This document shows positions 21,166-62,061 of a DNA stretch of 64,000 bases, one piece after another. Position 1 is the first letter of the stretch, and the number at the start of each line of letters is the position of its first letter. Source of the DNA: Aurelia coerulea (Eukaryota; Cnidaria; Scyphozoa; Semaeostomeae; Ulmaridae); assembly GCA_039566865.1 (NCBI GenBank), contig CM076961.1:4409501-4473500 (forward strand), written 5' to 3'. The position numbers were made by a program, and so were the translations under genes. The notes beneath the pieces were generated by a model. It searched no databases. It saw only the letters and a list, made by a program, of their open reading frames with translations, and was not told the origin of the DNA.

Positions 21166-22635
21166 CTGTGAAAATTAAAACAAAGGATTACATATTCATC
21201 TTAACCAAGTTGTGAGATATACACCAGGTGAGATGGAAAATATATACACTCTTTGAAACATCGTATTACAAAAATGTATACACTCTTTGAAACATCGAAA
21301 TACAAAAACTGTAACACCGATTTGAAATAACAACTCCGTTGTCTACCTTAGGGCTGAACTTAATTTTGGGAATGTATTGATGATCTAAAATGAATTAGCT
21401 TTATTACAACGAGGAATTCCAAAAACTAGCTTCTATTGGCTTTTGCCATAACTACAAGTGATCGGCTCAATTTGATCCATTTTTCAACAATCAAAATGGC
21501 AAAATGATGTATTTCCTAGCTCATGGATTGCTTTCTAATCATATGGATCATGAAATAGGTCTTCGGCTAATTCCTAGTTTCAGGGGGAAATAATGCACCT
21601 AAGATTATGAGAAAAATCTCGAAAATTAAGTTGAAGCCTAATTAAGAAGATAAAATTTAAATTTTACAAATTACTTGCATAGGTAATCCTGCATGAATTT
21701 TCAAACAGTTAATATATTTTCTGATTCATCCGGTACAAAGTGGAAGATTTACGGTTTAATTTAGTGGTAGCCTGCGTGTAGCCTCAACAAAGGATTGTTG
21801 AGGCTGCACGCAGGCTATTTAGTGGTTATTCGTGGTGTATCACAGCTCTGAGTTCTAAGCTGTTCCTTAATAGCGAATAGCATTAACATATAAAACTACT
21901 ACATATAAACTATAGAATCAAGAGGAACTTTAGAGGTCTTGCAAACGGCCTATAATTTTCATTTTTTTCATTTCATTTCATTTATTTATAGGAGGGTAAC
22001 CCCTCAGCAAAGGCTGATTTACAAGGCGCCCTCCGTCAAAAATCTTACAATTTATGGAATTGCTATTAAACTGCTACTACTATTAAAATAATTACAATAT
22101 ATGATTTCAAAATGAAAATGTAAAATACAAAATTGTTCTAATTTACAGAAGAAAAAAAAAGCGCAAAAAAGAAGCATATCCTAAATTGTTGTTTTAAAAC
22201 TGTTAAGTTTTACGGCTTGCTTCGACTCAGCTGAGAGGCTGTTCCAATATTTTACTCCTCTGAATGAAAAACATCTTTGACCATTTCCACTTTTCATTTA
22301 GAGCTGTGATACGATAAAAAACGAATATGACAAACACAAAGTGACGAGAAAGTAGAGATTGTCTTACTTGAGTTGTGAACGACAGAGCAGAAACAGTGCG
22401 CGCATGTGTCCTATAGCTCCCTCCAACCGGTAGTCAAACTCAGTCAGTCAGTAGGAACGGTGCGGTGGCGGTCGGTCGGTCGGTCGGTCGGTCGGTCAGA
22501 AGTCAGAACCAGTCGGTCTGTAGGAAAGGTCGGTCGGCCAGAACAATCGGTCAGAAACAATAGGTCGAGACAGTCGATCGGTCGGTCGGTCGGTCCGTCT
22601 GCCTGTCGGTCGGTCTGTCTGTCGATTGACCAATT

Positions 22636-34600: not shown

Positions 34601-37600
34601 AAATGCGGAATGGGTAGTGTGGGGGTTATCGTTGTGGGGGTTCGTTGAAGCGGAATGGGTATTGCGGCATATCATTGAGGGCAATGGAGTAAAAACAAGG
34701 ACTCATGTAATTAATCTAGATCTGCAGCTGGAGCAGGTCCAAATCAATCCCTTGCTTTTGATTACTTTCGACGAGTTTTCAATCTGCCTCTATTCACTAA
34801 ATCCTCATTATTGGCAGTTTGCAATGTCGGTAATGAGGATTTAGTGAGCCTCGTGTAGATTTAAAGCCACTCAAAAGCTATAAAAAACAGGGGATCAATT
34901 TGGACCAGCTGCGAAACAACGATACAATAAGCATACATTGCAAAAAATAATGAAGGCTAGTCAGTCGTTTTTACTGGTAAACAAGGTTTTAATCATTTAT
35001 TACGGCCACTCGATTCGTTTTCTGTGGCAGATTTTGAGATTAATTTTCTCTTTGTGAATCACGCGGTATTTATAATAACAGGCATGTTCATCCTGGGGGA
35101 TGGAACCTGACCTTGAAATAGATGGGTGTGTATGCCTCTGGGGTAAAGCGATCCTTATCCTGCGTTAAGGCCATTTCTTCATATCGATCTTCTTGCCTGG
35201 GAGCAAATTGGTTTTTGGGAGCATTTTTGGTGAAAGTGATACCCTGCTTGGAAGCAAAATCGCTAAAAAGATACCCTGTTCAGCGGCATATACCCGGTAA
35301 AAAAATACACGTTTTTTTTTTTTATAAGAAACTGGTTTATAAGAAACTAGTACTAGGATGACCAAAAATTTAAGAAACTCTAGTACTACGCTCAAGAACA
35401 GTTAAGAAACTCTAAAACTTTATTTCTGTATGTCTCTCTTATTCTATGTCTCTCTAACAAAGATACATTCGTCTTTTCTTAACTTTTAACTGCAAAATTG
35501 GTAAATTTTTGCCTTGATGTGCATGGCTTCTTCTTGATGACAATGTCAATGCAAAATGGAAGCCCTTTCTCGAGAAGAAGGCTCAACTTCGAACAATACC
35601 GCAATTTTAGGCCCAAAAAAATAAGAAACTAATTAAGAAACTTTTACTACTAAAACACCGAAATTTTCATGCGAAATTAAGAAACTTTTAGTACTAAGTG
35701 CTGATCCAAGTTTCTTATAAAAAAAAAAACGTGTATTGAAGAGCCCCCAGGCATGTTCCTCTCGATGACTCTATCTTTCAAGATCTTTGCAGAGCCTGTC
35801 ATGTTATTTCTAACGAAAAAAGTTTTTACAGAAAGTCTAGGTAAAGGTAGATTTCGTAAGAATAACATCAGTTTCTTTTATTGACATGCCATTTCAAAGC
35901 CATTAACAATTGCAGACAAAATAAATCCTCTCAACCATCAAATCAAAATAAATAAAGCCGCAAAACATTCCCTCAAATGAGTATGGCTAATTATCTCGTT
36001 GAGCATGCGAAAAGAGGTTGCTAAGTATACAGTACAGGCCTTGAGCACAGTATCATGACAAGGATTCTTTATATTAGGAAAAGAGTTCTTGAACCATATG
36101 AAAGACTGCAAATTTTTATAAACAAGAATTCTTAGGCAGAAATCTCACTAGAAGAATTCAGTAGAAGGAATACCCTCCATATCCCAACCTTTATCTGTTT
36201 AATGTCCCTTTTTTTTAGATTAAATGGTAGTTTGGGGTAGCTTGCAACCAGGTAAGAAATTTGCCAGCCACGATATCTGGGTCTAAATTTTAGACTATTC
36301 CTTTAATTTGCAATTATTTGGTTGCAAACTATCCTGACTTGTGGCTTAATTTAATTTTCGTATGCTGTTCGTTTTGTTCTTTGTCCCCTTGTTTGCTTTC
36401 TTTACACACTGTTCTAGTATTGTCCTCGTTTTTTGTTTCATGTTATGACCCTGGGGTAGTCGTGAAACTTCACTCCTCTTGGTATCATCTCGGTAGTGTC
36501 GTATAGTTGTAATAAGAGAGTACAGTAGGACGTAACATTGTGTTGTAAATTTTTATCTACTGAATATAAAAGAAAAATAAAAAAATCAACAAACCTAACG
36601 ATCGGGCCAATCAGCATCTTTTCTCCCAAGTCACGATGAAACTTCGGTCCTTCTTCTGGAGTTGTCAACAAAACTCTGTGTTTCCCTCTAACAATCAATC
36701 CCTTCCCATCAAGTCCGGGCTCATTAAGAGCTTGATTAACTCCCAAATAGTCATCGTGTAGGAGTCGGCGATGAAGCATTATCTCTATTGAACCATCATA
36801 GATACTTGAACCACCATGTGATCGGTCGGTCATGACACTTAGCTGCGCTTTGCTGTCCTTGATAAAAATTCTGCTATTAACCGGGTAATAATTACCGGAT
36901 ACCGGTTCAGTCACTTTGTAGTCCCATGTTGCTCGATAATCTCGTCTTCGTTCTTTAACCTCTCTTCCGTTTGCATCAGTATAAAATAACTTTTCGGACT
37001 TGACATTTGTCTGGAAGAACGAGATAATTTCTTTGCCAAAGCCATCTTTGATTGGAATAGGCCCAACTGTGTATTCAAATTCTGCTGAGCTCTCACCCGA
37101 ATATAACCGGATGACCTGGCTAACAAATGGTCCAAAGTTCTGCCTTATTTCTTGCACTAATTTCCCACTGATTACCGTAACTTTAGCGATGTTTCCATCG
37201 CATACAGGGCTTGGTTTTGTGCTGTTCGGTCGGAATATATACGCGCCTGAAGGCTGACGGCTAACATGGTCTCCAGTGCTTGCGGTATACCAAAGGAACT
37301 GCTGGTCAACGTCAATACTTAGGCCAATGTCCTTACGAGTGATTTTTGTTATCCTGCCAGTTGTCGGGGAATACTCGATCCTCAGTTTTTCGTTCTCAAT
37401 ATAATTGCCTGTATTGACCTCTTCAACAGGGGCAGCATTTTGCGCTAAGTAATCTTTCGCTGAATTTTTCTGCTCAACAAATGTTGTGTCAAATCCCAGA
37501 GGTTTCACATCGACTTTGTATACCAGCTCATATGGGGCGCTCCCCTGATTGCCCCTCACTGAAGCTGTCTCTTTTGAAACTGCAATAACCTGCGACTGGA

Positions 37601-40600
37601 GAGTCTTTCCGTTTGATCCAAATACGGCAATATTTGGGGTTGTGACAGGGAATCGAACGTAAGTGCTGACTGGCCTTCCAATTCCATTGTATACGTTGAC
37701 AGTCAGTGATAAGCTCTTTTCTGTTACTGGACATATACTCACATTAAGATAATTGCAGAATTCGAAATTTGGTCCAGCGGTTTTCGATTTGCTTCGTGAT
37801 GTCCGCTGACCAATGGCTTTTGCAAGGAGATCCTGAAAAAGAATAATTCAGCTGTCATGCGATCATTTGATATTTTCATCGATTTCATATTTGATTCATT
37901 TCAGGAGGGTTGACCTTAAAGGACAAGTCCGGGGTTGGAATAATTGTTCATAAAATGAAAGATCACAATGTTGTGAATGGTGTGTAGTACTTTTTTCCAA
38001 CCTTCTCTGTCTTTTCTCTGCGAAATTGTGTATTTAAATCTGTGAAATGAGCGAAATGACGTCATTATTCTTGACGTAATTTCACCCATTTCGCCTTCGA
38101 CCTGAACGAGGCTGTTTTCTTATGGAACTCTCCAGTAATTTCCGACGTCACAATGGAACCTCCAAACCGAGGCTAGCCATTTTATCGCGTTTTAAAAATG
38201 GCGACGACATTGGGCCTAACTTACGAAAAATGTCGTACGAATTTACAACAGAAAAAGACATCAAAACCCGGAAAAAAGCTGCAAGTGATGTTTGGCAGTT
38301 TGGTAAGGTTGCTTTTTGACATTAATTGTAGAAACCCCGGACTTGTCCTTTAAGCAAAAGCTGTTTATAAGCGTCGGAGGCAAGGGGCTGGGGGGAGCTA
38401 CAACCCCTTGTAATCGTGGAAAATTTATCGCATATCAGGCTCTATTTGGGAACTTTTTAACTCATTGAAGCCATGCCCCCTGAGCGTTGGGCATCCCCTA
38501 TGCCGATGCATACGATAGTTTGTCTATTTCTATCAATGGTAGTTTTAGGAGCACTGAGAGGCAAGGCATATTGAAGGAATACCCTGGTCCTCGCTCATGA
38601 TTTGACCACACCTCGGGATTTCTTTCACCTTGAATAACAGCGAGTTGGCAGTTCTCCTCACTCTAGGTACATTCACTCTAGTAACACAACACAAAACTGT
38701 CTCTCTTACCTAGGACCTAAACCCTGGAACAGTCTACACTCTGACCTAAAATCTGCTAAGAGTGTCAACAGCTTCAAGCATTAGATCAAAGACAAATTCT
38801 TTGAAGACAAAAGCTGCAACAGAACTGTCTATCAACAATCTTGTAAATGCAGCATTACTCTCGAATATTGAGACATAAATAATGTTTTCCTTTTCTTTTG
38901 TGAAAATGTTCCTTTCAATGACAACTCTGGAGGGACTATTATGGAAACAAAGTCTCACTGACATTTTAATGCTTACCTGCCATTTTAAACTGGGGATGTT
39001 TTTAGATTGAATTTTATATTTATATTTCAATGTACATTTGTAATTAGATTCCTTTTTCCTAAATTTATGTTACACTTAATTTCTAATTTTTTAATGGCAA
39101 AATAGTGCATACATATATATATACAGGTTGCGGTTGGCCCCTATAAAGGCACAATGCTCATGAATCAGGAAGAAGAGACCAATCAACTAAGGTTTGCCTC
39201 GCCCATTTCAAGTCATGTGACCATTGTCTTTGGAAGCTTAGTATCATACTACGTTTTGCATTCATAGCACAAGTTTTCATGGCATGAAATATGTCAGAGA
39301 AATCAAAAGGCATTTTATCGCCTATTGTGAATAAACAAACCAATAAGCTAGGAAAAATCTGAAAGCAAACCCAGCAATGAAGAGGGCACCCTAAAAATAG
39401 CACGTCTCTTAAGCCTGGTTCACATCAGATCGTTGAAGTTGCTGGAGATGTTTAAATAAACGACCATACTTGTTGGTCCAAATTGGTTCAAATACCCACC
39501 CCCCCCCCCAAAGACCCAAAAGGCCCAGAAGACTGGCTGTGAACCGCAAATGTAATCTCCTCTACAACCCTTACGACCCTTATGACCGACTTTTCACCGT
39601 TTACATTCAGTCTTTTGTGTCAGTGACCCCAGCTGCTCTAACGACTGCAACAACCCCAATGAGCCGCCAGGCTTCACGATGCCTCCTCATAATGTTTTCA
39701 CAGTCTCAGAAAAACCTGAGTCTTAGCTAGACTGATTACAATTTGTCGTAAATTTCGCTCGTTTTTATATTTTTGATCTGAACCTTTTCGCTCAACCTGT
39801 TTGAGCGAGCAATTCAATTCAATAAATAAATAAATAAATAAATAGGTAAAGCCATTCAGTTCAATAGATAAGTAAGTAATGAAGTTTTCGAAATTGCGAG
39901 CGAAAACTGGGACGAGTTGTAATAAGTCTAGGTCTTAGCTACGAAATCTTTTAACAAACCTGACATTCTTTTTCTCCAATAGCCAATCGCTGTGCATAAT
40001 CATAAGCCACGTGTTGTCTCTCAGTTCCCGTTATCGCGTCATGATGTTGGTTGACTCCCATTGCTTTTTTCAATGCTGTTGATGTTGGATAGCCGTCGTT
40101 TAGGCCATTAAGTGCCTCAAGTTGCTTGCATACCTGTTGAATAAGAATTTAAAGTATATGAAAGGAGATATAGAGATCTGGTGTAAACATAGCACAAAAA
40201 GGGACACGGGCCACTTTCTTCTATTATTTTCATCGATGTAGAACGTCAAATGCAATAGGTGATACTTATGCCTCGTTTACAGGAGACCGTTTTCATTTCA
40301 TATCGAATTGGGGTTCCGTTTACAAGGAAACGTTTTGTCTTGCGCTGCGGAGGATTCACCTTTGTCTTAACTCCCACTGCGCAGTGCTCCAAATGAATAA
40401 GAAGCTCGTAGAATTGATACAGAGGCTCTGTTTTAGTTGATACCGGATTTGACCGTTTGCACGATATCGGATTCGTTTCATGCCACTTTCAGAGGGTTTT
40501 CATTTGAAAACGCAAGGACGGTAGGAAGCCGCATTGGTGCCTTCTCGTGTAAACAGATAGCCAATCCGACATGAAATGAAAACAGTCTCGTGTAAATAGA

Positions 40601-43600
40601 AGGCCAATCCGATATAAAACTGATCCGGCATTAAAGTAAAACCGTATCGTGTAGGGATCTAGATTGGCCCATCCCCCAAGCAAATTTGCTTTTAACACCG
40701 TTTGATGTCGATTTGATTTTAAGATATTTATACAGGGCAGAACACTCAGTTTACGCTGTTTTGCAATGTACCCTATTTTAAAATTACCCTGTGTTATAAT
40801 GTAGCCGTTGATTTACTTTAATGAACGAGCAACACCGATGGAATGGAATCAGCAATGCAATCCGTTAGGGCCTAAATTTGAAAAGGCTTCACATTATTTG
40901 TATTCTAAAACATTGTGTCGCAAGTGAAAACCTGATGAAGAGGCATCGCATGGAAACATTGTGTCCCATACGTCTGGAATTGTTCTTTGTCTTAGAGGGC
41001 CGTAGAACCCTAATACCATCAGCATGGGCATGAATTTCTGCAAAAAGTTTGAAATTAGTCGTTATCCTATGTTCGCAAAGATAGCATATTGATGTCATCA
41101 TTAGTTTTAGAATTACAGCATTTTCACATTTCTGCTAGTTTTGATGTTGTGGCATCATCAAATTGCCAGATCGTAAACCAAAATCCCACAGACTCTTGCT
41201 TGCTACTACCTCACACCTTCAAAAATCGAGCAGGCGTGGCGCCAGAAATCTTCCGACGGTGGGCTGGAACTTCCGACAGAGGGGCTAAAACGACTAAAAA
41301 TGCTGTTTGCTGTTTTCACACGTTATTTTGCCAAATTTGTTCCGACAAGAACCCAAAATTTCCTCTGACGGGGGTGATAGATGCTTCCGACGGGGGCAGT
41401 AGCCCGTCCTAGCCCTCCCCTGGTGCCACCCCTGATTTATGGCGATTTTGATGTTTGTCAAAATGTCACAGCTTCACAGACCTCCTCTCGTCCATCCTTT
41501 CATAAAACTTAAGTACGCTGTAATTCCAAAATAATCATTGATATAAAAAATGCTCTAATCAATTCACTTGAAAGAAAGAAGCTATAGCATTTGTATATGA
41601 TAATTTCAAAGTTAGGTAAGGTAATTTACCCAGCTTCAATCGGCCATTCCTTCCCGTCGATATGAGAGATTTTCTACAGAAAGCCCCTTCCAAAAACCTG
41701 CGAAAACGAATGAAAACGACGAGCGAAATTTCCCTTTGTTTTCCTTCCTAGCAATAATGACACTTACGTGCATTCAAGTATTTTGTCCTCTTAAGAGAAT
41801 GGAATCCTCCTGAATACGTTATTCATACGAGTGGGAAGACTTTTTCATTCTCCCAGCAAGAGGATAGATAGGACGTGTTAAAGCGTGCTCAAGTCATTGC
41901 TGTAAGGTAAACATATTAGGGAAACTTGCTCGTGACTTTAGCACGTTTTTCAAGGTTCCACAAAAAGGGACTTTTTAGAAAAGCCTTGTTATTGTTAAGT
42001 CTGAACCGAGTGACCTATTTCAGCCAGGAAAAATTCTAAAAATAATTGAACATGTTAGCCATTCAATCAGATATTAGAAGATTTTGTGGCGCAGTGGTGT
42101 AATCCTCTGACTTTGCAGCCAGAACAGTCAGGTGGACAGGGCTCGATACCCGGTAGAGCCCCACCACTTGAGCGTCATGACAAGTAGCCTGATAACCAGA
42201 CCCGATTTCAAAGGAACTGGTAGAGCCCCCACCACTTGAGCGCTTGGTGCTAAAAAACGTCATGACAAGTACCGGGTGCCTGATAACCAGATTCCCGACT
42301 GTATTTGAGGATGTTGGTTGTGGTTTCAAAGGAATTTGGATGAAGTCGTTACTTTGCTTCGTGTTCTGCCATCTGGTTATCAGGCCATATGCCCACAATA
42401 CACGTGGAAGAAATAGGAGGTCGCAAAGACTCGATTAGGTCTTCTCTATTTCTGCGATCCCAGCGCTTGGCGCTAAAAAACGCAACTTCACTTTCATTTC
42501 AACTTCAGATATTACAAAACATCATTGCTTATATATTTAGGGAACAGTAGCCTTTCAAACGCCGCGCCTTTTTTGACTCACCCCGTAGAAACACAACATA
42601 AGGTGTCATAATTTGATACCTGCAAAAGATTATTGTTTTTTCTGATATATCCCTTGAGAGCAGGTCTGCTTGTGAAATATCCAGTCCAATAACAATGAGT
42701 ACAATGTGCATATGGGAAGAAATCATCTGTTTTTACACTCCAGACCTCTGCTGCATCATGCAAAGATTTGAGGTAAATAGAAGGAGTTGAATAGAATGCA
42801 TTCACTCTTCCATCCTGAAAAACGATGAAATAGACATGTAACACAACATGTTTTTGTTTTTCTTTCATAAGAAACTTACATCCAACATCAGCACAAGGCA
42901 AAAAAAGTTTCCTAATTCCACATGAAAATTTCCTGGGTGCTAATTTCTACCATGACTGCTACATTAGGTCTTTCTAGGCATACATACCCTTAGCAAAATA
43001 TTGAGTATATTTGCAGCATGCTTAAAGCCTGATCCTAACTTGTTTTGAGTACGATTTGAGTATGTTTGAGAGCTTGATTCAAGTAAGAATTTTGCACCGC
43101 TTGCACTAGCTTCTTCTTCTTTTTTTTTTATTCAATGAAAACAATTAAAAGTAACAAAGAACAAGATTGTAGATTGTAGCACTAGCTTCCATTTCCACCA
43201 TGCATCTTCTGAACTGAAGAAAAACTCAATCAAGCTTGATTGTAGTATGTTTGAGAATAATTCTAGCATCAGATTATTGTCAAGCTTGATCAAGTTCTAA
43301 TCATATGTGCAACTGGCAAAAATTGTGTCAACATACTCAATTCAAGCTCCTTCAAGCCAAAATCATGCTTTTGTGAAGCTTACGCAAGCTTGTCGCAACC
43401 TGAAAATTTTTAGAGTATTTTGCAGCTCATTGGTTAGCACAAAAGTAGTTCTACTGGGCTCAGAAACCTATCATTACAGTGAAGACTACTCAAGAATGAA
43501 TGTTCAACAAGAATCTTGCCATTGGTATTCTCAAATTTAGCTTTTAAAGTTTCTTTGTGCTTCCCAAACATAGTGCCAGAGTTGCTTGAATCTTTTGCCA

Positions 43601-45398
43601 TTGTCGTACTTAACTCTTAACCAGTTTCTTACATATATCAAGAAAGATGTGCAAACACTCCAAAAAGTACAATTTAGCACAATGATGTCCAGCAGACAAT
43701 TTAAACAATGGTAAGCATGAGGGGAATGTCAGACCGTGGGCCTTCCTTATCTCCAAAAGTTGGCTTTGAGTTCTCCAAAACTCATTGTTGGTCAAAGTCT
43801 GCTTAAGTTGGTCTCCAGTTGCTATTTCCATGTGGCAAAATAGTTGCAGCATAAAACTGATCCTAGGGGGATATCTTAGATGGGGGGGGGGGGCTGAAAA
43901 GAAATTTGCAATATCTCAAATCATGCAGCAAAATTATTTGGTAGAAAGCATACAAACTGCTCCATTTGTAGCTTCTACAAGGGAACTGTTAGTGTCCCTA
44001 AGATCACATCCTTAATTGGAGTGTGGGCTTATGTGTGGTTTGGTGTCTGGTGGGGCAGTTTGGGATAGTGATGGTGTGATGGGGGTGTTGTTCCTTGCAT
44101 GGTTACCACATGCGGGGCCTGCATTTCCTGTTGTTTTGCTCTTTTCCTGGGTGGTCCTGCTGGGTGGTGGATTGCTCCTGTAGCCCATGCTCATTAAGAT
44201 GTCTTGTACAGTACCATATGTCTCTTTCCATTTCTTTTGTGTTGGGTCTAAGTGTATTCTTGTTAGTTGTAGTGTATCCTTGTGAACTAATATATTGTCA
44301 TTTGTATATTGATTGTGTTATTTAATTTAGGTAAATTATGATTTATTTGTATTCTTTGATGTATTGATGTATTTAGATATATTTGTTAATAATGAAAACT
44401 GAAACTGAACTGAAACTGAGGAGGGAAATGGGCTGGAAAGCGAGAAAAAGAAAGAAAATAAAGGGTCATTGATATACCTTATTGACATAATGGATGAGCT
44501 TATCAATGTTCTTAAACCAAGCATTCGCATTCTCATATGTGAAATCAGACCCCATTGTGATTATAACGTTCTTGGTCTTGTAATACAATGCTTGCTTGCA
44601 GACATAACTGACAAAAGCATCAACTTTCTCCTTCACATTAACATCAAACAACCTGGGGTCATCCATGATAGGTTGGTCAGTGCAATACCATGCATAACAG
44701 AACCCAGGGGGTGGCATGTAAAGATAATAAAGGACCCCGGTGAAAATCTGGGATGATTTCTCGAAATTTCTGCTGCCACGCCAAACCATTTCCATGCGTT
44801 GTTCCTGGAGTCGCTTAGCCATATCTTGACGGTCAATTCTTCCAAAAAAGAACCCATCAAAAGACATCATTGAAAACAGCGAGGCTTGCTCTGCAGAATG
44901 CCCAAACGGGTCTATGTGCCAAGCAATTTTTGGCCTAGCTTCAGAGCCGAATGTATCATTTATAAACCGCAAACCGTAAGTCATTTGGTCGATGATTGCG
45001 TTGTAATGAGTTGCTGCTTCGTCGTTCATGGACCAACCGCCATTTATAAATTCAAGCTGCCCACTTTTAACTAGGCCTTTGACTGCTTGCTTCATCGAGT
45101 CGTCTTGCTCATTCCACCATCTTGTAAAAAACGCCATTTCAACGTAAATAAACTTTCTTGCTTTATTTTGCAACAGGGAAGCAATCACCGAATCCAAAAT
45201 GTACTGCACACCACCCCCAGTTAGGCTCTTTTTTGCACCATAATAATATTGATCAACTGTTTTCACCCATCCTACATCATCATGGCTGTGTGATACTATA
45301 TGTACTTGCAATTTCTCCACGCCTTTGCCGCATTTAAAACCAAAAGCCAGGTCGAAATATGCAGCAAGGAAGAGTAGGCCTAAATGTGCGACCGCCAT
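20742..45398 (-). CDS. MAN2B1: Lysosomal alpha-mannosidase, GH38 family, five exons
   Basis: Join, reading the minus strand: 45398-44478, 42814-42620, 40133-39960, 37832-36595, 21165-20742; 2952 nt, 983 residues plus stop, close to the ~1010 residues of human MAN2B1. The family hydrolyses alpha-mannose from N-glycans in the lysosome. Visible: an N-terminal hydrophobic signal peptide (about residues 1-20), the zinc-site motif HSHDD at 37-41, the nucleophile motif HIDPFGHS (Asp163), the zinc-site motif HHDAITGT at 402-409, then the beta-sandwich half with family words such as GNYYPVN and DRSHGGSS. Every junction has GT/AG sites and intron phases 0,0,0,2 keep the frame; the phase-2 join across the 15.4-kb intron makes a serine and continues into the family's C-terminal PDNVHLLTF block. 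The start ATG has a good context (AAACATGG). It is far less intron-split than the vertebrate gene. Function is inferred from family; the exon chain is read directly. Confidence 0.93.
21772..21822. repeat. Tiny hairpin element TAGCCTGCGTG, copy 1
   Basis: TAGCCTGCGTGTAGCCTCAA and its near complement with a few bases between. Related: 51812-51870 (full) and 54494-54530 (half). Confidence 0.6.
21965..22330 (-). mobile_element. LINE 3' end (RT tail)
   Basis: The minus-strand translation [19 protein letters not shown], then VKLNSFK is a LINE C-terminal tail. The 3' end runs into an A-rich TAAATGAAATG tail at about 21970. It is 5' truncated and lies in intron 4. Confidence 0.65.
22440..22720. repeat. 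Tetranucleotide satellite block
   Basis: Runs of GGTC, then AATC/ATCG, then ATTC units, imperfect and changing unit along the block. It produces a Ser/Arg/Gly- and Ile/Asn/Gln-repeat pseudo-frame that should not be taken as a protein. Confidence 0.9.
22828..24500. repeat. Giant foldback (about 780-bp arms)
   Basis: GCATATGAGTCAAATCTTTC at 22828 is mirrored by its complement ending at 24500. Pairing continues with few mismatches to about 23610 and 23720, leaving a centre of about 110 bp. It lies wholly in mannosidase intron 4. Mirrored open frames of up to 145 codons on both arms show no protein similarity I know. Confidence 0.85.
25172..25585. mobile_element. Mariner-type MITE (CAGTAAATCCC)
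   Basis: TA|CAGTAAATCCCTGCATA...ATGCGGGGATTTACTG|TA; 414 bp; the word GGTTCTTATTT is repeated inside. It lies in intron 4. Confidence 0.8.
25797..26400. repeat. Foldback element FB2, copy 1
   Basis: About 250-bp arms (starting GACAGATTTCGTAAGGCAATAGC) are inverted around about 26095. Related foldbacks lie at 33640-34235 and 47220-47770, with a half copy at 35850-36000. It is inserted in the inverted Penelope-like arm. The arms contain short open frames in mirrored pairs that are not genes. Confidence 0.65.
26936..27118 (-). repeat. tRNA-derived SINE A, copy 2
   Basis: Minus strand begins GTGGCGTAGTGGTGTAATCC (A-box-like) with B-box GGTTCGATACC, and ends in an AGCGCTTGGCGCTAAAACC tail. It is inserted in the Penelope-like ruin. 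It is not a functional tRNA because no complete cloverleaf forms. Confidence 0.75.
27380..27707. mobile_element. Inverted-repeat MITE (TTGGGGAGACGAGATACGG), interrupted copy
   Basis: Arms GTTGGGGAGACGAGATACGG and its near complement. It is split by the TTAA element at 27500-27644. An unbroken 184-bp copy sits at 61878-62061. Confidence 0.75.
27500..27644. mobile_element. TTAA-target hairpin MITE (AGGGTCTGTTTC)
   Basis: AGGGTCTGTTTCATCCAGC and its complement, TTAA on both sides (27496-27499, 27645-27648); 145 bp. Confidence 0.85.
27935..28271 (-). mobile_element. LINE 3' end, copy 2, inside the Penelope-like ruin
   Basis: Minus-strand match to 38890-39060 (GAGGGACCATTATGGAAAC and the AT-rich end). 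It is flanked by CTACCAACAGTA on both sides (about 27921 and 28273), a 12-bp target duplication that splits the Penelope-like frame. At 28170-28258 it carries a GGAATCTGGAAACT hairpin and minisatellite. Confidence 0.6.
28690..29640 (-). mobile_element. Decayed LINE reverse transcriptase
   Basis: Read on the minus strand from 29640: [15 protein letters not shown], then MYADDT (the polymerase YADD box), and further down the C-terminal block [19 protein letters not shown], then [11 protein letters not shown]. Frames are broken by stops and shifts. It sits in intron 4 in the same orientation as the mannosidase gene. Confidence 0.75.
29231..29302. repeat. Hairpin CCCTGGGTACCAG
   Basis: About 33-bp arms with at most two mismatches around GAGATCTC. 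The outer word recurs at 63685-63702. Confidence 0.75.
30296..32243. mobile_element. 1.95-kb inverted-repeat element with nested insertions
   Basis: Ends are CAGTAAGGCACCGCATTTAA and its near-perfect complement at 32221-32243. It splits a LINE-like tail whose undisturbed homologue is at 16195-16460, giving an empty-site comparison. Inside lie a GTGTAAAATT foldback (about 30487-31012), a GGGTGTCCC element (31015-31616) and the retroposed 3'UTR (31774-32102). The original element was therefore small and non-coding. Confidence 0.65.
31763..32113 (-). pseudogene. Retroposed copy of the peptide gene's 3'UTR exon
   Basis: About 320 bp nearly matching 12838-13155, with an A-tail (T run at 31772-31779 on the plus strand) and an 11-bp target duplication ACAAGGACCTT on both sides (31763-31773, 32103-32113). 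The 5' end stops about at the exon junction and carries GG there, as spliced exon 1 would, rather than the genomic AG. This marks LINE-type retroposition of a truncated mRNA. It lies inside mannosidase intron 4. Confidence 0.7.
32407..32996. mobile_element. Inverted-repeat element (CGGGTGTCC), third subtype
   Basis: CGGGTGTCCTAAAATGATG and its near complement at 32996. Long inner arms (AGAAACGGCC, GATTTATCGATGTTC) pair around about 32690. Confidence 0.65.
33640..34235. repeat. Foldback element FB2, copy 2
   Basis: Arms share AATTCAAAGCGATTAGCGA and ATTCAAAACCAACAAAG words with copy 1. The centre (about 33880-33990) is different. It lies in intron 4. Confidence 0.6.
35308..35733. mobile_element. 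TA-target MITE, family K2, copy 1
   Basis: TA|CACGTTTTTTT...AAAAACGTG|TA. The interior again has AAGAAACT beside AGTACT words but is otherwise unlike K1. It is nearly identical to 46323-46740. Confidence 0.8.
36318..36588 (+). mobile_element. LINE-like 3' tail, copy 3, abutting a splice donor
   Basis: Shares CCTGGGGTAGTCGTGAAAC, CTCGGTAGTGTCGTATAG and TTTTTATCTACTGAATATAA with copies 1 and 2. It ends in an A-rich tail that stops about 6-8 bp from the exon 4 donor of the mannosidase gene, inserted antisense to it. Confidence 0.55.
36595..37832 (-). CDS. MAN2B1: Mannosidase exon 4 (beta-sandwich domains)
   Basis: This exon has 1238 nt, enters in phase 0 after TTTTTCAG and leaves in phase 2 at GTTAG|GTTTGTTG. 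It covers the linker after the catalytic domain and most of the C-terminal beta-sandwich, with the motifs [31 protein letters not shown] and RRRDYRATW. The open frame runs on into the intron as LINE-derived sequence; those extra residues are not part of the protein. Confidence 0.94.
37920..38349. mobile_element. TTAA-target MITE (AGGACAAGTCCGGGG)
   Basis: Ends AGGACAAGTCCGGGGTTGG and its complement, TTAA at 37916-37919 and 38350-38353; 430 bp, less than 100 bp from the exon 4 acceptor of the mannosidase gene. Confidence 0.8.
38643..39065 (+). mobile_element. LINE 3' end (RT tail plus 3'UTR), copy 1
   Basis: The translation [18 protein letters not shown], then SVNSFKH with a stop, is a LINE C-terminal tail. 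The following sequence (GGAGGGACTATTATGGAAAC) is shared with 27935-28271. It lies in mannosidase intron 3, antisense to the gene. Confidence 0.65.
39790..39845. repeat. AAAT microsatellite
   Basis: About six AAAT units after CAATTCAATTC, at the end of a repeat of unclear type (39540-39845). It lies upstream of the intron 3 donor in plus coordinates. Confidence 0.8.
39960..40133 (-). CDS. MAN2B1: Mannosidase exon 3 (HHDAITGT zinc ligand)
   Basis: This exon has 174 nt and 58 codons, phase 0 at both ends, with acceptor TTCAACAG and donor GTCAG|GTTTGTT. It encodes [10 protein letters not shown] and then the invariant [15 protein letters not shown] segment that supplies the last zinc-binding histidine. 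It is too short and Met-poor to show as a long open frame, so it is easily missed. Confidence 0.94.
42083..42497 (+). repeat. tRNA-derived SINE A, copy 3, interrupted
   Basis: Head at 42083-42186 (GGCGCAGTGGTGTAATCC, GGCTCGATACC) and tail at 42440-42497 (AGCGCTTGGCGCTAAAAAAC), split by an insert whose ends are CCTGATAACCAGA and its complement (about 42190-42385). It lies in mannosidase intron 2. Confidence 0.65.
42620..42814 (-). CDS. MAN2B1: Mannosidase exon 2
   Basis: This exon has 195 nt and 65 codons, phase 0 at both ends, with acceptor TTTTTCAG and donor GCAG|GTATCA. It contains the family block DDFFPYA...[13 protein letters not shown], which follows the active-site region in lysosomal alpha-mannosidases. 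Confidence 0.95.
44013..44430. other. Probable retroelement tail in mannosidase intron 1
   Basis: GT-rich stretch ending in TGAAAACTGAAACTGAACTG. A 60-codon minus frame here ([20 protein letters not shown]) looks retroelement-like, but I cannot assign it. Confidence 0.35.
44478..45398 (-). CDS. MAN2B1: Mannosidase exon 1 (signal peptide and N-terminal catalytic half)
   Basis: This exon has 921 nt and 307 codons and ends in phase 0 at AATAAG|GTATAT. It carries the signal peptide, the HSHDD zinc motif and the IDPFGHS nucleophile motif. An N-D-T glycosylation sequon sits at residue 147. After the donor the frame reaches a stop within four codons, which supports splicing there. Confidence 0.95.
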
Positions 45399-45426
45399 GT
45401 TTGAAGAAATTCAAAGAACACAAATT

Positions 45427-54345: not shown

Positions 54346-55945
54346 AATAGCAAATTTACAGGAAATGAAATGAAATACAAAATATGCTAGGATCTCACTG
54401 AAATAAATAGTTGCTTGAATGATTTTTCCCAGTACTGGATTTTCTAGATTATTAGCGCTCTGGGAGTTTCTTATAAGCAACTTCTTATATATAGCCTGCG
54501 TGCAGCCTCAACAATCCGGAGGAGGAACACCACGTGAATAGCAGCTCAAAATACAGGATTGCAGCAACGGCGATCCCTAAATAAATAAATGGCCTAAACA
54601 TCTTCCACCCACTACAAGAACACTGCAGGAAAGATCTGAGTAATGCTGCTGACATTACAAAGCAAAAGTAATAAACTAATCCCGTCTATATTATCAATCG
54701 TGAGGCCTTCGTGGGGTGCCAATAGCGACGAAACTATTAAGGGCGTGCCCGCTACACAGCTTTGTATTTCTCAGAACTGGGTTCCGAGAACTCGGATGTG
54801 AACGAGGCTCAAACATGGCGTTTCTGCATGTTGCATCAGTACGTAAAGTGAAAGTAATTAATTTTAGGTCATTTTCATGTTTTTAGGAATATTTGCGTCA
54901 CCGTGGAGGAACTTTTCTCAGAAATGTTTCATTAGTTATTTCTTAGTATTTGTAACTTTGAAATGATGATACTAAAGCAACTAATGTCGAATTTATTGCA
55001 ACTTTACGCGACTGAGGAAGTAAATTATATTCATTTTCAATTTCTTATTTCTTTTCATATGCAATGCATGAAAAATGGCAAGGGGTTGTATAAACGAAGA
55101 AGAAATTCTCGAAATAGGGATTTTAGAGTTAGAAAACCGACATTTTTTAGGGAGTTTACTCATCAAGCTGTGTTTCAGTGAGTTGCTATTCTAGAAAGAG
55201 TGCCGCTTCACGGATCAGTTTTGATACGTAATTGGCATCTTCTGGGCTTTACATGCTTGTTACTGATAGCTTGAGCTCCGCATGTTCGAGGAACGAAGCC
55301 TCTCTTGAAAGGGTAATCCTCAGCAATTAGAGAGCTGCAATGGAGGCAACAGAACATATAAAACATGAACGCAGGCTCTCTGAAATCATTCAGTTCGAAA
55401 ACCATCCAAAGTGGCACTACTCAAGACTCCAAAAGATACATCAAAGACAACTTTGAAAGATTTTCATCCCAAAGCAGACTTAAGAAATTTTCATCAAAGA
55501 AAATTTGAAACAAAGAATCGTTAATCATTGGTCAAGATACTTACAGAATGGAGAACATGAAAGGTAACTACACGGTATTTCAGTATAAGAAATTGGTTTA
55601 TAAGGACCTTAACCCTCAGATCGCCACAAAAATTAAAAAATCCAGGTCACCCCTGCCTCATTCTCCGTCTGGTCTACAGTACTAGGAAAGTATCTGCTGC
55701 ATGCTTTAGCACGTGCTATCCTCTTGGGAGGATGAACATGCTTTCGCCTGGTATCAATAACCCATTAAGGCGGATTCCATTCTCCCAAGAGGACAAAATA
55801 CATGAATACATGGTAAGTGTCATTATTTATAGGAAGGAAAACCAAGAAAATTTTTCTCATCGTTTTCATTCGTTTTTGCAGATTTTTGGAAGGGGCTTTC
55901 TGCAGAAAATCTTCCATATCCACGGGAAGGAATGGCCGATTAAAG

Positions 55946-56327
55946 CAAGGGCGCCTACCTTGTAGGAAGTGTGTTTATTCCCAGTACTGTAGAGTAATTG
56001 GTGTCCTGTGACCCAGTACAGAGAGTGTCCTAGAACCGTACCGTGACCAAGCAGTACACAGCGTCAGTCCTCTCAAGGTCAAGATGACGTATGAATAACT
56101 TTGTGGTTTCAAATTCCGTTGTTTATGTAACACGATATCATTTGTTATACGATCTGGCCACAGGGAATCAGACAGCGTGATTTTTGATTGGTAACTCTAA
56201 CAGACGTTAGAATTTGAAAATCCCTGTAACTAGATATACACAGATTAACAGGACTGGGTCATAGGACACCAATTACTACTCGTACAGTACCGCGAATAAA
56301 CACACTGCCTACAAGGTAGGCGCCTTT
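55946..56327. mobile_element. Inverted-repeat element H, copy 2
   Basis: Same ends and interior as copy 1 without the nested insert. It is flanked by GATTAAAG on both sides (55938-55945, 56328-56335), which shows an 8-bp duplication. Confidence 0.75.
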
Positions 56328-57069
56328 GATTAAAGCCGGGTAAATTACTGAACCTAATTGAGCATATTGGCAATAGAACAAGACGGCGTTCAACAATATT
56401 GCTTTGATATTCAGAGAGAAGAGGTCTTTCAAACGAGGATTGTTTTTTTACTCACCCGGTATGTGTCCCAAAATAATGTATCGGCCTTTGACGAAACCTG
56501 CTATCAACAACTATGCACCGATTTGAGCGAAATGCCAATTATGTTGCGGCAAAATGCCTTATTTAGAAGTAGGAAAATGTTGATTTAAAATCGGTCATAC
56601 CATTATAGAGTTACGGGTCATTTTGGTGGAGAGTTATTTCTGAACATACCTCAAAGAGAACTGAAAATTTTGATAATGTTTTTCCAAAGTTTCAAATTTA
56701 AGACATTGAAAAATGGTATTGTCATCCTCCTAGGGACAATGTCTAATTATAAATATGTGTCTCTCATATGTAAATGTGTATGGGTTGCCGAAAGTTCGTA
56801 ACAAAGAAATTGATGAAACTGCCATGTTATCAAAGCTAAAGCCGAACACCGTATCAAGTTTTATCGTAACTCTTACTTCTTCACAAATCTTTTCAAAAAT
56901 ACCTTCCTACTAAAATTGTCCATAATTCTAGAAAAATGTGACCGATAATAGTGGGATGAATTTCCAAATCGAAATTAGCCTTTTTGCTTCAAAATGGCAG
57001 GCAGTTTGTTCACATAGGTTTATAATTCATCATTGTGCAGCTCGGCATGTATACAAATACACAAGGAGT

Positions 57070-57325
57070 ATACAGATTTGGTTGGATTTTGGTTGGGCCC
57101 AGCGATGGAGAATTTAGCTTTAATCAATGGCTAAACATTTTCAAAATGTTCCTCGATAGTCAGCTTGAACACAGATACCTCGTTTGATAGTATTAGTGCT
57201 TTGAGAGCTGAAATATTAATCCTAAAATTTCAAAATTGCCCCTTGGTCAAAACCAGAGCTAGGCCCTTTGGCCTAAGCAAATTCTTGCAGAACAGCGAAT
57301 AAATCAATAATATCCTTGCTAAAAT
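57070..57325 (+). repeat. Half copy of the GGTGTCCC element before the cytokine-like exon
   Basis: Contains GGGCCCAGCGATGGAGAATT, AAATGTTCCTCGATAG and CCTTTGGCCTAAGCAAATTC as in the full elements, and stops about 30 bp before the first recognised exon. Its other half is absent. Confidence 0.55.
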
Positions 57326-57357
57326 TGATGTAACCAAGAATACATCTCCTTCCATAG

Positions 57358-57575
57358 CAACAATCATCGCTGCCCTCAGCATATACGTTATCGCATGCAG
57401 TGCATTGCCACTTTCAAGTAACATCAACAACAACAACAGAACCAACTCAACAATCAGATCAGCAGCAATCCCAGAAAGCAATGCTGTTCATCAATCTATT
57501 GATCATCTATTGCAATCATGTGACGCGACAATTGGAAATATTATCAAAGATAGCCAAGGATTACAACAAATCCTG
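57358..57575 (+). CDS. Cytokine-like gene, exon with signal peptide and helix A
   Basis: Acceptor CCTTCCATAG and donor CTG|GTAAGT; 72 full codons after a split first codon. There is no in-frame ATG and a stop lies upstream in frame, so the start codon must be in an earlier short exon. The helix A candidate is SIDHLLQSCDATIGNIIKDS. The exon lies about 30 bp after half of a transposon of the GGGTGTCCC family. Confidence 0.7.
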
Positions 57576-60500
57576 GTAAGTTAAGTTTTTTTTACCTATT
57601 CACCCCCCTAGACACTACGCTAATCAGTTTTAAACGGGATGAAATGATATTTTATCAGGAGGTAAAGTCTTTCAGAATTCTCAGTCACTTTACACCAGTT
57701 TCTCTGCTCGCCTTGTTGTGCACATTCACCCCTGGAAAGACGATGCGACAGACATTAGACACTATGAAGTGACAAACCTTTCAGGAGGTAAATCCCGTCA
57801 GAATACTCATCTTATTCACATGAAAGTACTGATACTTGATACTATATTTTTTAAAAATCTTTTTATGCTTATGATAACCCCGGTAAAACCATGGGCAATA
57901 ATGCACCGTTGATGTGGCCTATGTTATGATCAAAATTGTATTCGTACTCACTGTGTCTTGTTTCTCTTCCACGGGAGTGCGAGAAAAGCTTGATAATGTT
58001 GCTATTCCTTCGTTCTTCTCTCGTCACAACAAGGAATCGAATGCCGCCATTATTCAATTCAGATACAATTGAAACTGTTGGAGCTCCTACGCAGCGATAC
58101 GTCTCATTTCAAAGTTTGAACTATATGTTTATTATAAGTTTCTTTTAGGGCATGCTGAAAGATAATAAATTACCATTCCCAATAGTTAACTTGACCTTTG
58201 ATGCATTGTATTCCAATGAATTAACTGTCAAGGGGTCAGAACCTAAAGCTCAAAGTTTGCTTGATGGTATAGGTTCGTAGAATGTCAAATTTTGTCACAC
58301 GTGCGTTCATATAAATTTTTAGTATCAATCGAGCAAGAAATAGTTTTCATTTACATCATATTTTGGATTTCAGGCGACAAATTTCCCAAGCAATGTCATT
58401 GCGACTAATCTTGGCATCTCCTACCCTGCGTTGGAAATAAATCAAGTGGCCTGCGAGCCATTTCAGGTATAAGTTTATCTAAAATATCTGTTTCTTCTTC
58501 AATCCTAATAAAGGCTTCTTCGAAATTAGTTGATACCAGAGACGTAGGGGGGGGGGGCACTGGGGGCACGTGCCCCCACCCCCAAGATTTTGCAATAAAC
58601 AAAGAACCCCTTTCTATTTTCAGGAAGTGCCCCTTCAGCTTAAAGAAAAAAGTGCCCTTGGAGTGTTGTGCCCCCCCAAGTTTGAGATGCTTCCTACGTC
58701 CCTGGTTGATACACCTGCATTCATCTCTATGAGACCTATTGATTGACTAATAAACTATTGACCCATTTTTTGTCATAGCAAATCTTTCTTAACTTTCGGC
58801 TTCGCTCAAATAAGGAACACCTTGTAGAGCTTCGATGTTAGAGAAAGAAACCTTGAAAATTACTTTGTCCTGAAAAGATCTTGTTGCATTGTGAAAAACA
58901 ATTGGCCAGTGTAAAATGGACATACGCATTTTTGGTGCAAGAAACTTATAAATTGAGCCATTAAAATTATCAGATTTTGAGTACCGAGAGTTTCTTAAGA
59001 GTTTCTTAAAGGCTTAATAGCAATCTTCTTGTTTACTACCCGTGCCCTCGTGAACATTTCAAAACAAAATTTTTAAGAGAGTTGAGTTTCTTGCAAGAAG
59101 TTTCGTATAAAAAATAAGTCTATTTAGCTACTGTCAAGCATGTTCTTTATTTACTAAATTCTTATCGCTCCTAGGTAATTGAAAGAATTCATAATTACTC
59201 AAAAGTGCTCGATCGATTCGTTGCACCGCTCACTGAAATTGCAAATGAGATTCAACAAGATTCCAGCAGACAAAGTGCAAGAAGTTTGATTATCAGAATT
59301 ACCAACGCTCTCACATCACTCAATATTCTCCAAGTCAAAATGGTAAGTAACGGGGCATCTGAAAGTATTTTTACTGGACGGGAATCAGTCAACAGGGCAC
59401 TCTAAAAATCCGGTACTCATGTTTATGGAAAATCTGCCGAAAAAGGACCCCTTGTTAGAGAATGTTAGGGCCGAAAACCCACCCATATGGGTGGCACATA
59501 TCTGGTTTGATCAAGCTATAATTTCAAGCTTCTTTACACGCCACGCAACCACCAAATGTGCTTCCTTTGCAATCATCTATCGCGTCTATCTCGATGATCA
59601 ATTTTTGCTATCTTTATCTTCGCAAACATTTGAGCCACATTTTGTTTTCATTTATAGCTGGAAAGTTTCCTTACATCGCACTCAATTGGGGCATCATCTC
59701 CAACAATTCAAGAACTAACTGTCAAAACAAGAACATACTTGGTAGGTTTTGTTCTATCTTCTGTACTTCTACATAGCACCCGAAAGCAGTTTCTAGAACA
59801 TTGTGAAGCTAAGATTATTGAAACGTGTCCTGGTCCCTCCTCGCGATGTGACCACACACGGGGGGGGGGGGGGGGTCTTGGCCAAATTTTGGGTAGGGGT
59901 CTGCCGCGAGCATCTTCAAAAGGGTACCGTTGGCTAGACTAATTTTTACGAAAATTGTACCCTTGGCTAGACCAATTTGACCATTGTCTGAACCAATTTT
60001 TACGAAAATGGTACCCTTGGCTAGACCAATTTTGACCATTTCCTCGACCAATATTGTCAAATTTGTGCCAAATATGATATCATGACCGTTCGCTAGACCA
60101 ATATTGTCAAAAATGATACCCTTGGCTAGACCGTTGTAGGTCAAAATTGCAAAAAAGTATACCCTTGGCTAGACTAAAAGTCCGAAAAAGTATACCCTTG
60201 CTCGCGGCACATCCCCAGGTACCTTTACTATGGAAGAACCCCCCCCCCCCCATGTGACCACACCTCGTGATTCCTTTTGCCTGGAATTACAGAGAGTTGG
60301 CGACTCTCCTAGCGGGTTCGACAGGGTGGAGACTCGAATAACCAACCTTCAGATTGGTAGTGAAGCGCTCTACTACTGAGCTATCCCCACACGTTGGTTC
60401 TGGTAGGTTTACAATGCAACGCTTTTTAAAGATTTGAAAGCTTTAAAATGCTTGTTCTATCCATCTTCATTGATTATTGACGTCAGTTGTTATTGTCTGA

Positions 60501-61297
60501 GGAATCGGCATAAAATTCTGCCGGCATCGTGTAGACGGGAGGCGAAAACGGCACATTTTTATGCCGTTTTAAAATTCTACAGGCGCCGTGTAGACGGGAG
60601 CACATTTTCCAAGGTAGCATAAACATTCTGCTGTTGTCAAATTCTACCAGCATTGGGTAAACGGGGCCTAAGACTATGCGCTCATATTACTATGCGCTCA
60701 TGTGAACCTGGTTTGTTAGCAGTTGCAGTTAAACCAATGAATTCCCGCGCAATGATATACTCTACACAACATATTGCGTAAAGATCTCTTTGACCAGCTC
60801 TCAAATATTGACGGATTCAATGTTGCTATATTAACCCGAAAGAACTATGTCCCCTATTTTTGTTTGGTGATCAAAATTTGGGCACAGTTGTAAAGAGAAT
60901 CATATTAGGTTCAATCAATGCTGAAATATAAACGGCAGCGCTCTCTATTTCTTTGTATTCAAGCATTTGTTTTATCATGTACCCCCATGTACCCTTCAGT
61001 AGAATGCAAGGTGTTCATTGTGAAGACTTGGTGACCTCACGTCCTTTCTCGCCATACATGTCTCAGTGTAGAGTAATTTAGCTTGCACTTTTAATTATAA
61101 CTGCTATTTTTAATTGATAAATAAAAATATAATCTCTCTTATCCTCACAGGCACACTCACACCCTGGCCAACATTTCAACAACCAGCAAGTGAAGAACAT
61201 CCGGGACTATAGCTTTCTCGAAGCTATTGTCCATGTTGTCCACATTATCAAATCAGAGATGAGACAAGGCTTTCCATTCTATCAAATTATCAACTGA
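57358..61297 (+). CDS. Secreted four-helix cytokine-like protein (IL-6/CLCF1-type candidate), exon 1 missing
   Basis: Join 57358-57575, 58374-58466, 59175-59342, 61151-61297; 207 residues plus an unlocated 5' exon. Exon order gives a hydrophobic signal segment (about IIAALSIYVIACSALP), an Asn-rich stretch with NRT and NST sequons, a long amphipathic helix with one Cys, a loop with one Cys, two further helices in a single exon, and a last exon with a fourth helix (KNIRDYSFLEAIVHVVHIIK) before the stop. Visible introns are phase 0 with strong sites (CTG|GTAAGT, ATG|GTAAGT, ATTTCAG, CTCACAG). The 5' acceptor at 57357 would make intron 1 phase 1. Size, secretion, helix order and phases fit class-I long-chain cytokines; residue spacing in helices B-D best recalls CLCF1/CNTF. 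Such proteins signal through gp130-type receptors in vertebrates. Exon structure is well supported; the family call rests on pattern only. Confidence 0.6.
58149..58272 (+). other. Open segment with strong acceptor inside the cytokine-like gene
   Basis: TTTCTTTTAG|GGC ATG... opens a 40-codon frame (GMLKDNKLPFPIVNLTFDAL and on) that would follow helix A in phase. Its good donors (GATG|GTATAG, ATAG|GTTCG) are phase 1 and would put a stop into the next exon; only weak phase-0 donors exist. It may be a decayed or alternative exon, an alternative ending, or chance. Confidence 0.3.
58374..58466 (+). CDS. Cytokine-like gene, AB-loop exon
   Basis: Acceptor TTGGATTTCAG and donor TTTCAG|GTATAAG; 31 codons, phase 0 at both ends. 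The sequence is loop-like, with prolines (NFPSN, SYPALEI) and a Cys near the end that could pair with the helix A Cys. Other frames of this piece hit stops at once, so the phase-0 reading is forced. Confidence 0.65.
58537..58704. mobile_element. hAT-type MITE in the cytokine-like gene
   Basis: Ends CAGAGACGTAGG and CCTACGTCCCTG; 8-bp duplication GTTGATAC at 58529-58536 and 58705-58712; 168 bp in the intron after the AB-loop exon. Confidence 0.85.
59175..59342 (+). CDS. Cytokine-like gene, helix B and C exon
   Basis: Acceptor CGCTCCTAG and donor AAAATG|GTAAGTA; 56 codons, phase 0. It encodes two amphipathic helices (IERIHNYSKVLDRF...EIANEI and RSLIIRITNALTSLNIL) split by a polar QQDSSRQS turn, with an NYS sequon. 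CLCF1 also encodes its helices B and C together. Confidence 0.7.
59862..60250. mobile_element. Inverted-repeat element containing a CCCTTGGCTAGACC minisatellite
   Basis: G-run, then CTGCCGCGAGCA at the left, and TGCTCGCGGCA, then C-run at the right. ATGTGACCACAC lies on both sides (about 59845 and 60252). The interior has about nine imperfect TACCCTTGGCTAGACCAAT units. Confidence 0.65.
60252..60395 (-). repeat. tRNA-derived SINE B
   Basis: Minus strand: GGGGATAGCTCAGTAGTAGAG, then TTATTCGAGTC is a tRNA head with an abnormal 9-base anticodon loop, followed by a body ending in a GAATCACGAGGTGTGGTCAC motif. A body fragment recurs at 38588-38640. It lies in the last intron of the cytokine-like gene. 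Confidence 0.65.
61151..61297 (+). CDS. Cytokine-like gene, terminal helix D exon
   Basis: Acceptor ATCCTCACAG; 48 codons and a TGA at 61295-61297. A His/Asn/Gln-rich linker precedes a single strong amphipathic helix and a short tail ending FPFYQIIN. A possible AATAAA lies at 61551. Confidence 0.68.
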   Translation, partial: AHSHPGQHFNNQQVKNIRDYSFLEAIVHVVHIIKSEMRQGFPFYQIIN

Positions 61298-61877
61298 AAA
61301 TTTGGCTTGCTGGATCAAGGAAAGTTGTAAGTTGATTTGAAAAGACGAACAATACCTTTTGTTTAATTATTGTTCACTTTATCCAATCAGAACTACCGTA
61401 AAAGCTCTCAGAAGGCTTCGTCTTTTTTAGGCCCCCCCACTTTAGGCCCATTTTCAAAGCCAGAACTATAAACGAGCTCATTCTCCTATTTAGCACCCAC
61501 CTACAGGGTACGCCAGAAAGAACATCAAATTTGCTCGATGGAGAAAACGCAATAAATTTGAATGAAGAAAACTTTGGTCGATACAGCAACTGAGAAATTC
61601 TTCATGTCATGCTCGAAAAAATAGAACAAAAATCACAAAAGAATACATCAGCCTTTCGGCTATCAACTAAAGTCTGATTCACTCCAATTTTCAAACGAAA
61701 GAAATTCTTTTTGGCGCAGCCAGTTTATGAATTAAATGCAACACCTTTATAGAACTTGTGGATTATTTCAACAAAGTACTTTCGCCTAGATGTACATGAG
61801 CTAGTGTGGTAATTTAAATGTATCTATCATGCAAGCTATATTGTTTATTAACTTTGGCAAATATGAAAGCACAACTT

Positions 61878-62061
61878 GTTGGGGAGACGAGATACGGTTT
61901 GTCCGAGGAAACGTATGTGTCCCCCCTCCCCCCGTGCAGTAGGTTAATGCTCATGTACAGTAGCGTTTTGGGTTCGAACTCTGACGGGCGCATGAGCATT
62001 AACCTACTGCACGGAGGGACACATGAGTTTCCTCGAACAAACCATATCTCATCTCCCCAAC
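61878..62061. mobile_element. Inverted-repeat MITE (TTGGGGAGACGAGATACGG), intact copy
   Basis: Same arms as 27380-27707, uninterrupted; about 600 bp downstream of the cytokine-like gene's stop. Confidence 0.75.

Follow-up and report, generated by a model that had tools for sequence, protein, structure and literature searches.

Does a jellyfish carry a gene for a vertebrate-like helical cytokine? The question is raised by a locus on the forward strand, at positions 55548-61297 of a 64,000-nucleotide stretch of the Aurelia coerulea genome (assembly GCA_039566865.1, contig CM076961.1, positions 4,409,501 to 4,473,500; hereafter, the window). An original prediction, made from the letters alone, had described four exons here and likened their product to IL-6 and CLCF1. 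Our analysis slightly favors reading the locus as a medusozoan five-exon gene for a secreted, long-chain class-I-type four-helix cytokine of about 213 residues, whose plan is nearest to that of the IL-6/IL-11/G-CSF and EPO group. A vertebrate-like helical cytokine in the jellyfish lineage would be very surprising, and the fold and kinship proposed here are tentative.

The four exons initially placed at this locus splice cleanly and in frame, as had been claimed. Exons E1 (57358-57575), E3 (58374-58466), E4 (59175-59342) and E5 (61151-61297), all on the forward strand and with AG and GT at their borders, join into one open frame of 207 residues ending at a TGA stop, and the joins E1/E3, E3/E4 and E4/E5 make three phase-0 introns. 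E1, which is entered in phase 1 and left in phase 0, encodes a signal-peptide core, an Asn-rich stretch holding the N-glycosylation sequons NRT and NST, and predicted helix A (57477-57575; SNAVHQ...LQQIL), a hand-picked segment with helical periodicity. Positions 57360-57404 encode the signal peptide's hydrophobic core and its end (TIIAALSIYVIACSA), with putative cleavage before LPLSS. E3 (phase 0/0), the proposed A-B loop exon, was chosen by the layout-template search described below and has a loop-like look. E4 (phase 0/0) carries predicted helices B and C, and E5 the predicted C-D loop and helix D. A possible additional exon on the same strand, E4b (59658-59741; LESFLTSHS...RTYL), is open and in phase 0/0, and stands outside our preferred model.

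As a coding sequence, these four exons are incomplete: they hold no initiator ATG, and the phase-1 acceptor of E1 calls for a further exon on the 5′ side. The description of a four-exon gene with phase-0 introns therefore stands for the in-frame chaining and the three internal joins but not for the 5′ end, and within the chain E3 is weak and E4b possible. Between 50.5 and 57.3 kb, three candidates combine an ATG with a phase-1 donor scoring at least 1, two of them ending at the same donor, 55563. The best, which we propose as exon 0 (coding part 55548-55563, forward strand), supplies an ATG, five codons and one further base (MENMK-) ahead of the phase-1 donor AAG/gtaact. The resulting five-exon model would have coding sizes of 16, 218, 93, 168 and 147 nucleotides (nt), intron phases 1-0-0-0 and a 213-residue product starting MENMKATIIAALSIYVIACSALPLSS. 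With the proposed ATG exon, this N terminus is plausible as a signal peptide, and its removal at the putative cleavage site would leave a mature protein of about 190 residues.

To what extent could such exons arise by chance? Splice sites were scored with a generic model using generic frequencies, and percentiles were taken within the window. The acceptor and donor percentiles are 0.960 and 0.999 for E1, 0.940 and 0.911 for E3, and 0.996 and 0.996 for E4, and the E5 acceptor reaches 0.9996. Among 400 shuffled regions of 6.5 kb, 1.5% held an exon at least matching E1 in quality, 0.3% one matching E4 and 1.3% one matching E5. E1, E4 and E5 are solid core exons, and it is likely that they belong to a real gene. 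The top generic-model chain through these three exons totals 42.8, a value equaled in none of 2000 dinucleotide shuffles (mean 11.1, maximum 37.0). Summed by hand, the chain E1-E4-E5 alone totals 28.7 (equaled in 14 of 2000 shuffles), E1-E3-E4-E5 about 27.5, and E1-E3-E4-E4b-E5 29.1 (13 of 2000). When 48 real tiles of the window were scored on both strands, a chain with E1 and E4, lacking E5, ranked first at 40.8, followed by exons of the neighboring mannosidase gene at 36.3. Overall, the locus is probably a real gene for a secreted helical protein.

Exon 0 and E3 are individually weak, and the case for both depends on how well the whole chain fits. We assessed this fit with a layout template. 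It called for an ATG with 7-60 nt and a phase-1 donor, then three internal exons, one of 130-250 nt entered in phase 1 and left in phase 0 and two in phase 0/0 of 70-140 nt and 130-210 nt, and lastly a terminal exon of 120-260 nt. Within 55.0-61.5 kb, the best template chain was exactly exon 0, E1, E3, E4 and E5 (34.9 bits), and it was unchanged when a hydrophobic leader was required. Template chains of any kind occurred in 4 of 1000 shuffles (best, 12.5) and, with a signal-like leader, in none of 1000; these counts are to be read with size limits that were fixed after the gene was seen, around the exon sizes of EPO, IL-6 and GH. Among 40 real-window tiles, none of which spanned the whole gene, one held a template chain (26.0) and none held one with a leader.

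The introns and the 3′ flank hold further features. A 41-codon open stretch on the forward strand at 58149-58271 (GMLKDNKLPFPIVNLTF...) lies behind a fair acceptor, has no phase-0 donor, and could be a relic or an alternative terminal exon. In the last intron, 59890-60215 (forward strand) carries degenerate repeats of a unit resembling acccttggctagaccaatttttacgaaaatggt, which a tandem-repeat search of 55000-62000 did not pick up. A stretch at 60280-60395 in the same intron was judged by eye to be tRNA-like or similar to a short interspersed element; ARAGORN found no tRNA in the window. Beyond the stop, an AATAAA on the forward strand at 61551-61556 is a possible polyadenylation signal.

Does the product look like a four-helix protein? 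AlphaFold2 folded E4 alone into helices at residues 2-28 and 32-55 (27 and 24 residues; mean predicted local distance difference test score, pLDDT, 72.6) and E5 alone into a helix at residues 11-39 (29 residues; mean pLDDT 71.8, about 90 at residues 21-30), in runs on single exons as single sequences, an input that readily yields helices. In helical moment, hand-picked helix A exceeded 99.8% of 5000 shuffles (p 0.002) and hand-picked helix B 99.5% (p 0.005). The control segments E4b, E2, 57685 and 60407 gave p values of 0.67-0.94 for helical periodicity (E4b, 0.86; 57685-57882, 0.94). The proposed order of signal peptide, helix A, loop, helices B and C, and helix D is supported for the hydrophobic leader and the helices predicted in E4 and E5; helix A is put forward from the periodicity of a hand-picked segment. 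Long-chain class I cytokines have a signal peptide, a precursor of about 190-230 residues and four helices of about 20-30 residues each, bundled up-up-down-down with two crossover loops. The four helices of the jellyfish protein would pack up-up-down-down. Once the leader is removed, the protein keeps two cysteines: the first sits in helix A, the second close to where the A-B loop ends, and these may form a disulphide.

The gene layout can be set beside those of known cytokines. Human EPO has coding exons of 13, 146, 87, 180 and 156 nt with phases 1-0-0-0; its helix A lies at the end of exon 2, the loop takes up exon 3, exon 4 encodes helices B and C, and exon 5 the C-D loop and helix D. The coding exons of IL-6 measure 19, 191, 114, 147 and 168 nt, also with phases 1-0-0-0. 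EPO, GH, IL-6 and G-CSF genes share a common five-exon plan, and those of CLCF1, CNTF and LIF have fewer coding exons. By exon boundary, the jellyfish model divides into leader and helix A, A-B loop, helices B and C, and C-D loop with helix D. Compared with the layouts of the EPO, IL-6 and GH genes, it agrees in phases and in the mapping of helices to exons, and differs in a longer E1 (218 nt) and a shorter E5 (147 nt). The claimed likeness to class-I long-chain genes, once the proposed exon 0 is included, is in this comparison even closer than the original prediction had stated. G-CSF genes are described with five exons and four introns in PMC6389648.

The sequence itself was compared with eight human long-chain cytokines: CNTF, IL-11, G-CSF, CLCF1, LIF, GH, EPO and IL-6. 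Free local alignment gave z scores of about 3 for CNTF and IL-11, 1.4 for G-CSF, and values between -0.7 and 0.8 for CLCF1, LIF, GH, EPO and IL-6. The CNTF alignment was rejected as support, as the first helix of E4 lands on CNTF helix C. The IL-11 alignment starts where helix A ends (NIIKDSQGLQQIL opposite SLLADTRQLAAQL), crosses the A-B loop and continues in register into helices B and C, with the loop motif NFP..NL..S.P.L partly in common with KFP..NLDSLPTL of IL-11. In a register-bound test, which shuffles residues inside each exon and was devised after the IL-11 alignment had been sighted, scores as good arose in 3 of 400 shuffles for IL-11 and 9 for G-CSF; with 4000 shuffles the counts were 24 (z 3.8) and 106 (z 2.6), uncorrected for the eight comparisons. 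The IL-11 register score fell from 57 to 42 when E3 was dropped, to 42 when 57685-57882 took its place and to 46 with E2 instead; for G-CSF, 47 became 34, 24 and 39. Adding E4b lowered the IL-11 score to 45 and left G-CSF at 47. With EPO, there was no sequence similarity without E4b (z 0.0-0.1), z was 2.1-2.8 with it, similarity was absent in register, and the cysteine pattern differs. Given the eight proteins tried and a test that came after the sighting, these results point to the IL-11/G-CSF group without proving it, and sequence kinship with that group is suggestive only.

Beyond the after-the-fact template and register test and the helix-prone AlphaFold2 input, several results weigh against a cytokine gene. 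Of these, the lack of relatives, the shuffle-like scores of six cytokines and the frequency of E4-like hairpins would suit a lineage-restricted secreted helical protein of medusozoans with another role, for example structural, lipid-binding or defensive. Such a protein would have reached its short first exon, intron-split signal peptide and phase-0 introns between helices by convergence. In the protein database, none of 121 and none of 34 word-sharing candidates scored at E ≤ 10, in a search that uses at most 100 five-residue words per query, for proteins of a kind that diverges fast. No PDB chain matched. A Pfam search, covering the IL-6/G-CSF, LIF/OSM, CNTF and EPO/TPO families, returned no cytokine profile at E ≤ 10 when models of 207, 235 and 243 residues were scanned, and only two sub-threshold unrelated matches. 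The database includes cnidarian, sponge and placozoan proteins (six named cnidarian entries are among the 120 mannosidase matches listed), so close annotated relatives of the predicted protein are probably absent from it. Six of the eight cytokines were shuffle-like in register, with scores as good in 78 of 400 shuffles for CNTF, 149 for CLCF1, 178 for EPO, 230 for GH, 293 for IL-6 and 344 for LIF. Among the reversed controls, eight in all, that for LIF was equaled in 8 of 400 shuffles, on a level with G-CSF itself (9 of 400), and the others in at least 62. Helical hairpins like that of E4 are frequent in unrelated proteins and folds, hand-picked helices C (p 0.35) and D (p 0.52) are ordinary in helical moment, and exon-wide helical scans are non-significant (0.115 for the mature part of E1, 0.059 for E4 and 0.116 for E5). 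The claimed IL-6/CLCF1-type kinship finds no backing in these searches, which do not place the protein in a named family: IL-6 and CLCF1 do not align, and the Pfam profiles fail. CLCF1, CNTF and LIF share with the jellyfish protein its proposed long-chain four-helix type and its general size, but are shuffle-like in register; the IL-11/G-CSF/IL-6 group resembles it in the five-exon plan and the in-register IL-11 alignment, but gives no Pfam match and has IL-6 among its shuffle-like members. We nevertheless regard a non-cytokine as less likely: the exon-to-helix mapping and all four phases fit one group together, predicted helices of 24-29 residues fall in the expected exons, and IL-11 and G-CSF have their register scores.

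The weakness of single exons bears on another explanation, in which E1, E4 and E5 are real and exon 0, E3 or an omitted exon is mistaken, or some exons are due to chance, so that the product is a different protein. Exons as good as exon 0 arose in 24% of 500 shuffles, as good as E3 in 15% of 500 shuffled introns (21% of 1000 under a looser count), and as good as E4b in 6.8% of 500 (19.5% of 1000, looser count). The E3 donor scores just 0.1 bits, E3 alone is ordinary against the IL-11 A-B loop (p 0.20), codon usage does not discriminate the exons, and the chain totaling 42.8 takes middle exons other than E3, among them 57685-57882. That segment, however, shows no helical periodicity, implies a loop of 66 residues and reduces the IL-11 and G-CSF register scores, and it is very unlikely that chance put the three core exons in this order; we consider a partly wrong model improbable. 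Least probable, in our estimate, is a class II-type helical cytokine similar to interferon-lambda or IL-10, whose family follows a six-helix plan. With E4b, which is open and in phase, the gene would have six exons with phases 1-0-0-0-0. In IFNL2 and IFNL3, according to PMC2654155, the first coding exon is very short, its intron follows the first base of a codon, and the later introns are in phase zero; these genes have one exon more than our five-exon model, and the match needs E4b. E4b lacks helical periodicity, however, and two helices of 24-27 residues in one exon with a separate loop exon would better suit the long-chain class I type. Our preference stays, by a little, with the five-exon class-I-type cytokine. 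A bolder proposal, which we put forward tentatively and hold to be possible rather than expected, is that this is a true cnidarian homologue of the vertebrate long-chain class I cytokines (IL-6/IL-11/G-CSF/EPO); the gene, with its five-exon plan in phases 1-0-0-0, would then predate the cnidarian-bilaterian split, and could represent the native type of ligand that cnidarian class I receptors, CRLF3 among them, have so far lacked.

The original prediction had made its interest depend on a non-bilaterian host, and the neighboring gene agrees with this. On the reverse strand, a lysosomal alpha-mannosidase gene (20745-45410; Pfam, PDB) holds GH38 domains at 44466-45410, 42581-42946 and 36438-37847, and a GH38 C2 domain at 20745-21200 (reverse strand; Pfam) probably belongs to the same gene, which has a long N-terminal exon (about 310 residues) and long introns. 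For its first exon, 2308 of 3454 database candidates scored at E ≤ 1e-50, and the best named cnidarian among the 120 matches listed is Hydractinia, at 69%. A tree of 38 rows, built from this one gene and with one named medusozoan, joins the window gene to two records (98/97), joins that trio to a five-row group containing Hydractinia (eight rows, 99/99), and nests these eight within 16 rows with named anthozoans (97/93). We take this to place the host beside Hydractinia among the cnidarians, in Medusozoa and probably outside the hydrozoans. An alpha-mannosidase record labeled Anopheles melas tops the match list (665 bits, 55% identity over the best local stretch), perhaps reflecting repeated domains or a mixed assembly. 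Elsewhere in the window, a 173-residue open frame on the forward strand (14812-15333), judged by eye, resembles the C terminus of a reverse transcriptase from a long interspersed element; Pfam gave just one sub-threshold unrelated match for it.

How might such a ligand act? The predicted cytokine would be released from tissue cells; speculatively, it might bind a receptor on the cell surface that carries fibronectin-III domains of WSXWS type and pair two receptor chains, and the paired receptor might start a JAK/STAT or related kinase signal. CRLF3 is one candidate partner. In PMC6797617 and PMC8063046, it is described as a class I receptor relative found from cnidarians to mammals, with its native ligand unknown, and human EPO is reported to elicit a response from insect CRLF3. 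A recent review, PMC12026705, treats the way CRLF3 works as controversial, since it has been located in the cytoplasm as well as in the membrane, so the pairing is a lead and no more. IL6 itself is reported from vertebrates alone in PMC13203501, which finds JAK along with STAT in both sponges and cnidarians. PMC8226699 found none of the IL6 superfamily among invertebrates, and cites IL-6-like reports from Drosophila and a sea star. The Drosophila Unpaired ligands (Upd1-3), called IL-6-like in PMC13203501 and PMC8226699, are insect proteins and are likened to ours by description only. Exon structure has served as support before, for interferon-lambda, as PMC2654155 relates. If our reading is true, a ligand gene in cnidarians would push this signaling family's beginnings back to the base of Eumetazoa, with a definite protein available for testing that early origin. 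It would also mean that exon layout can reveal cytokine genes where sequence search fails.

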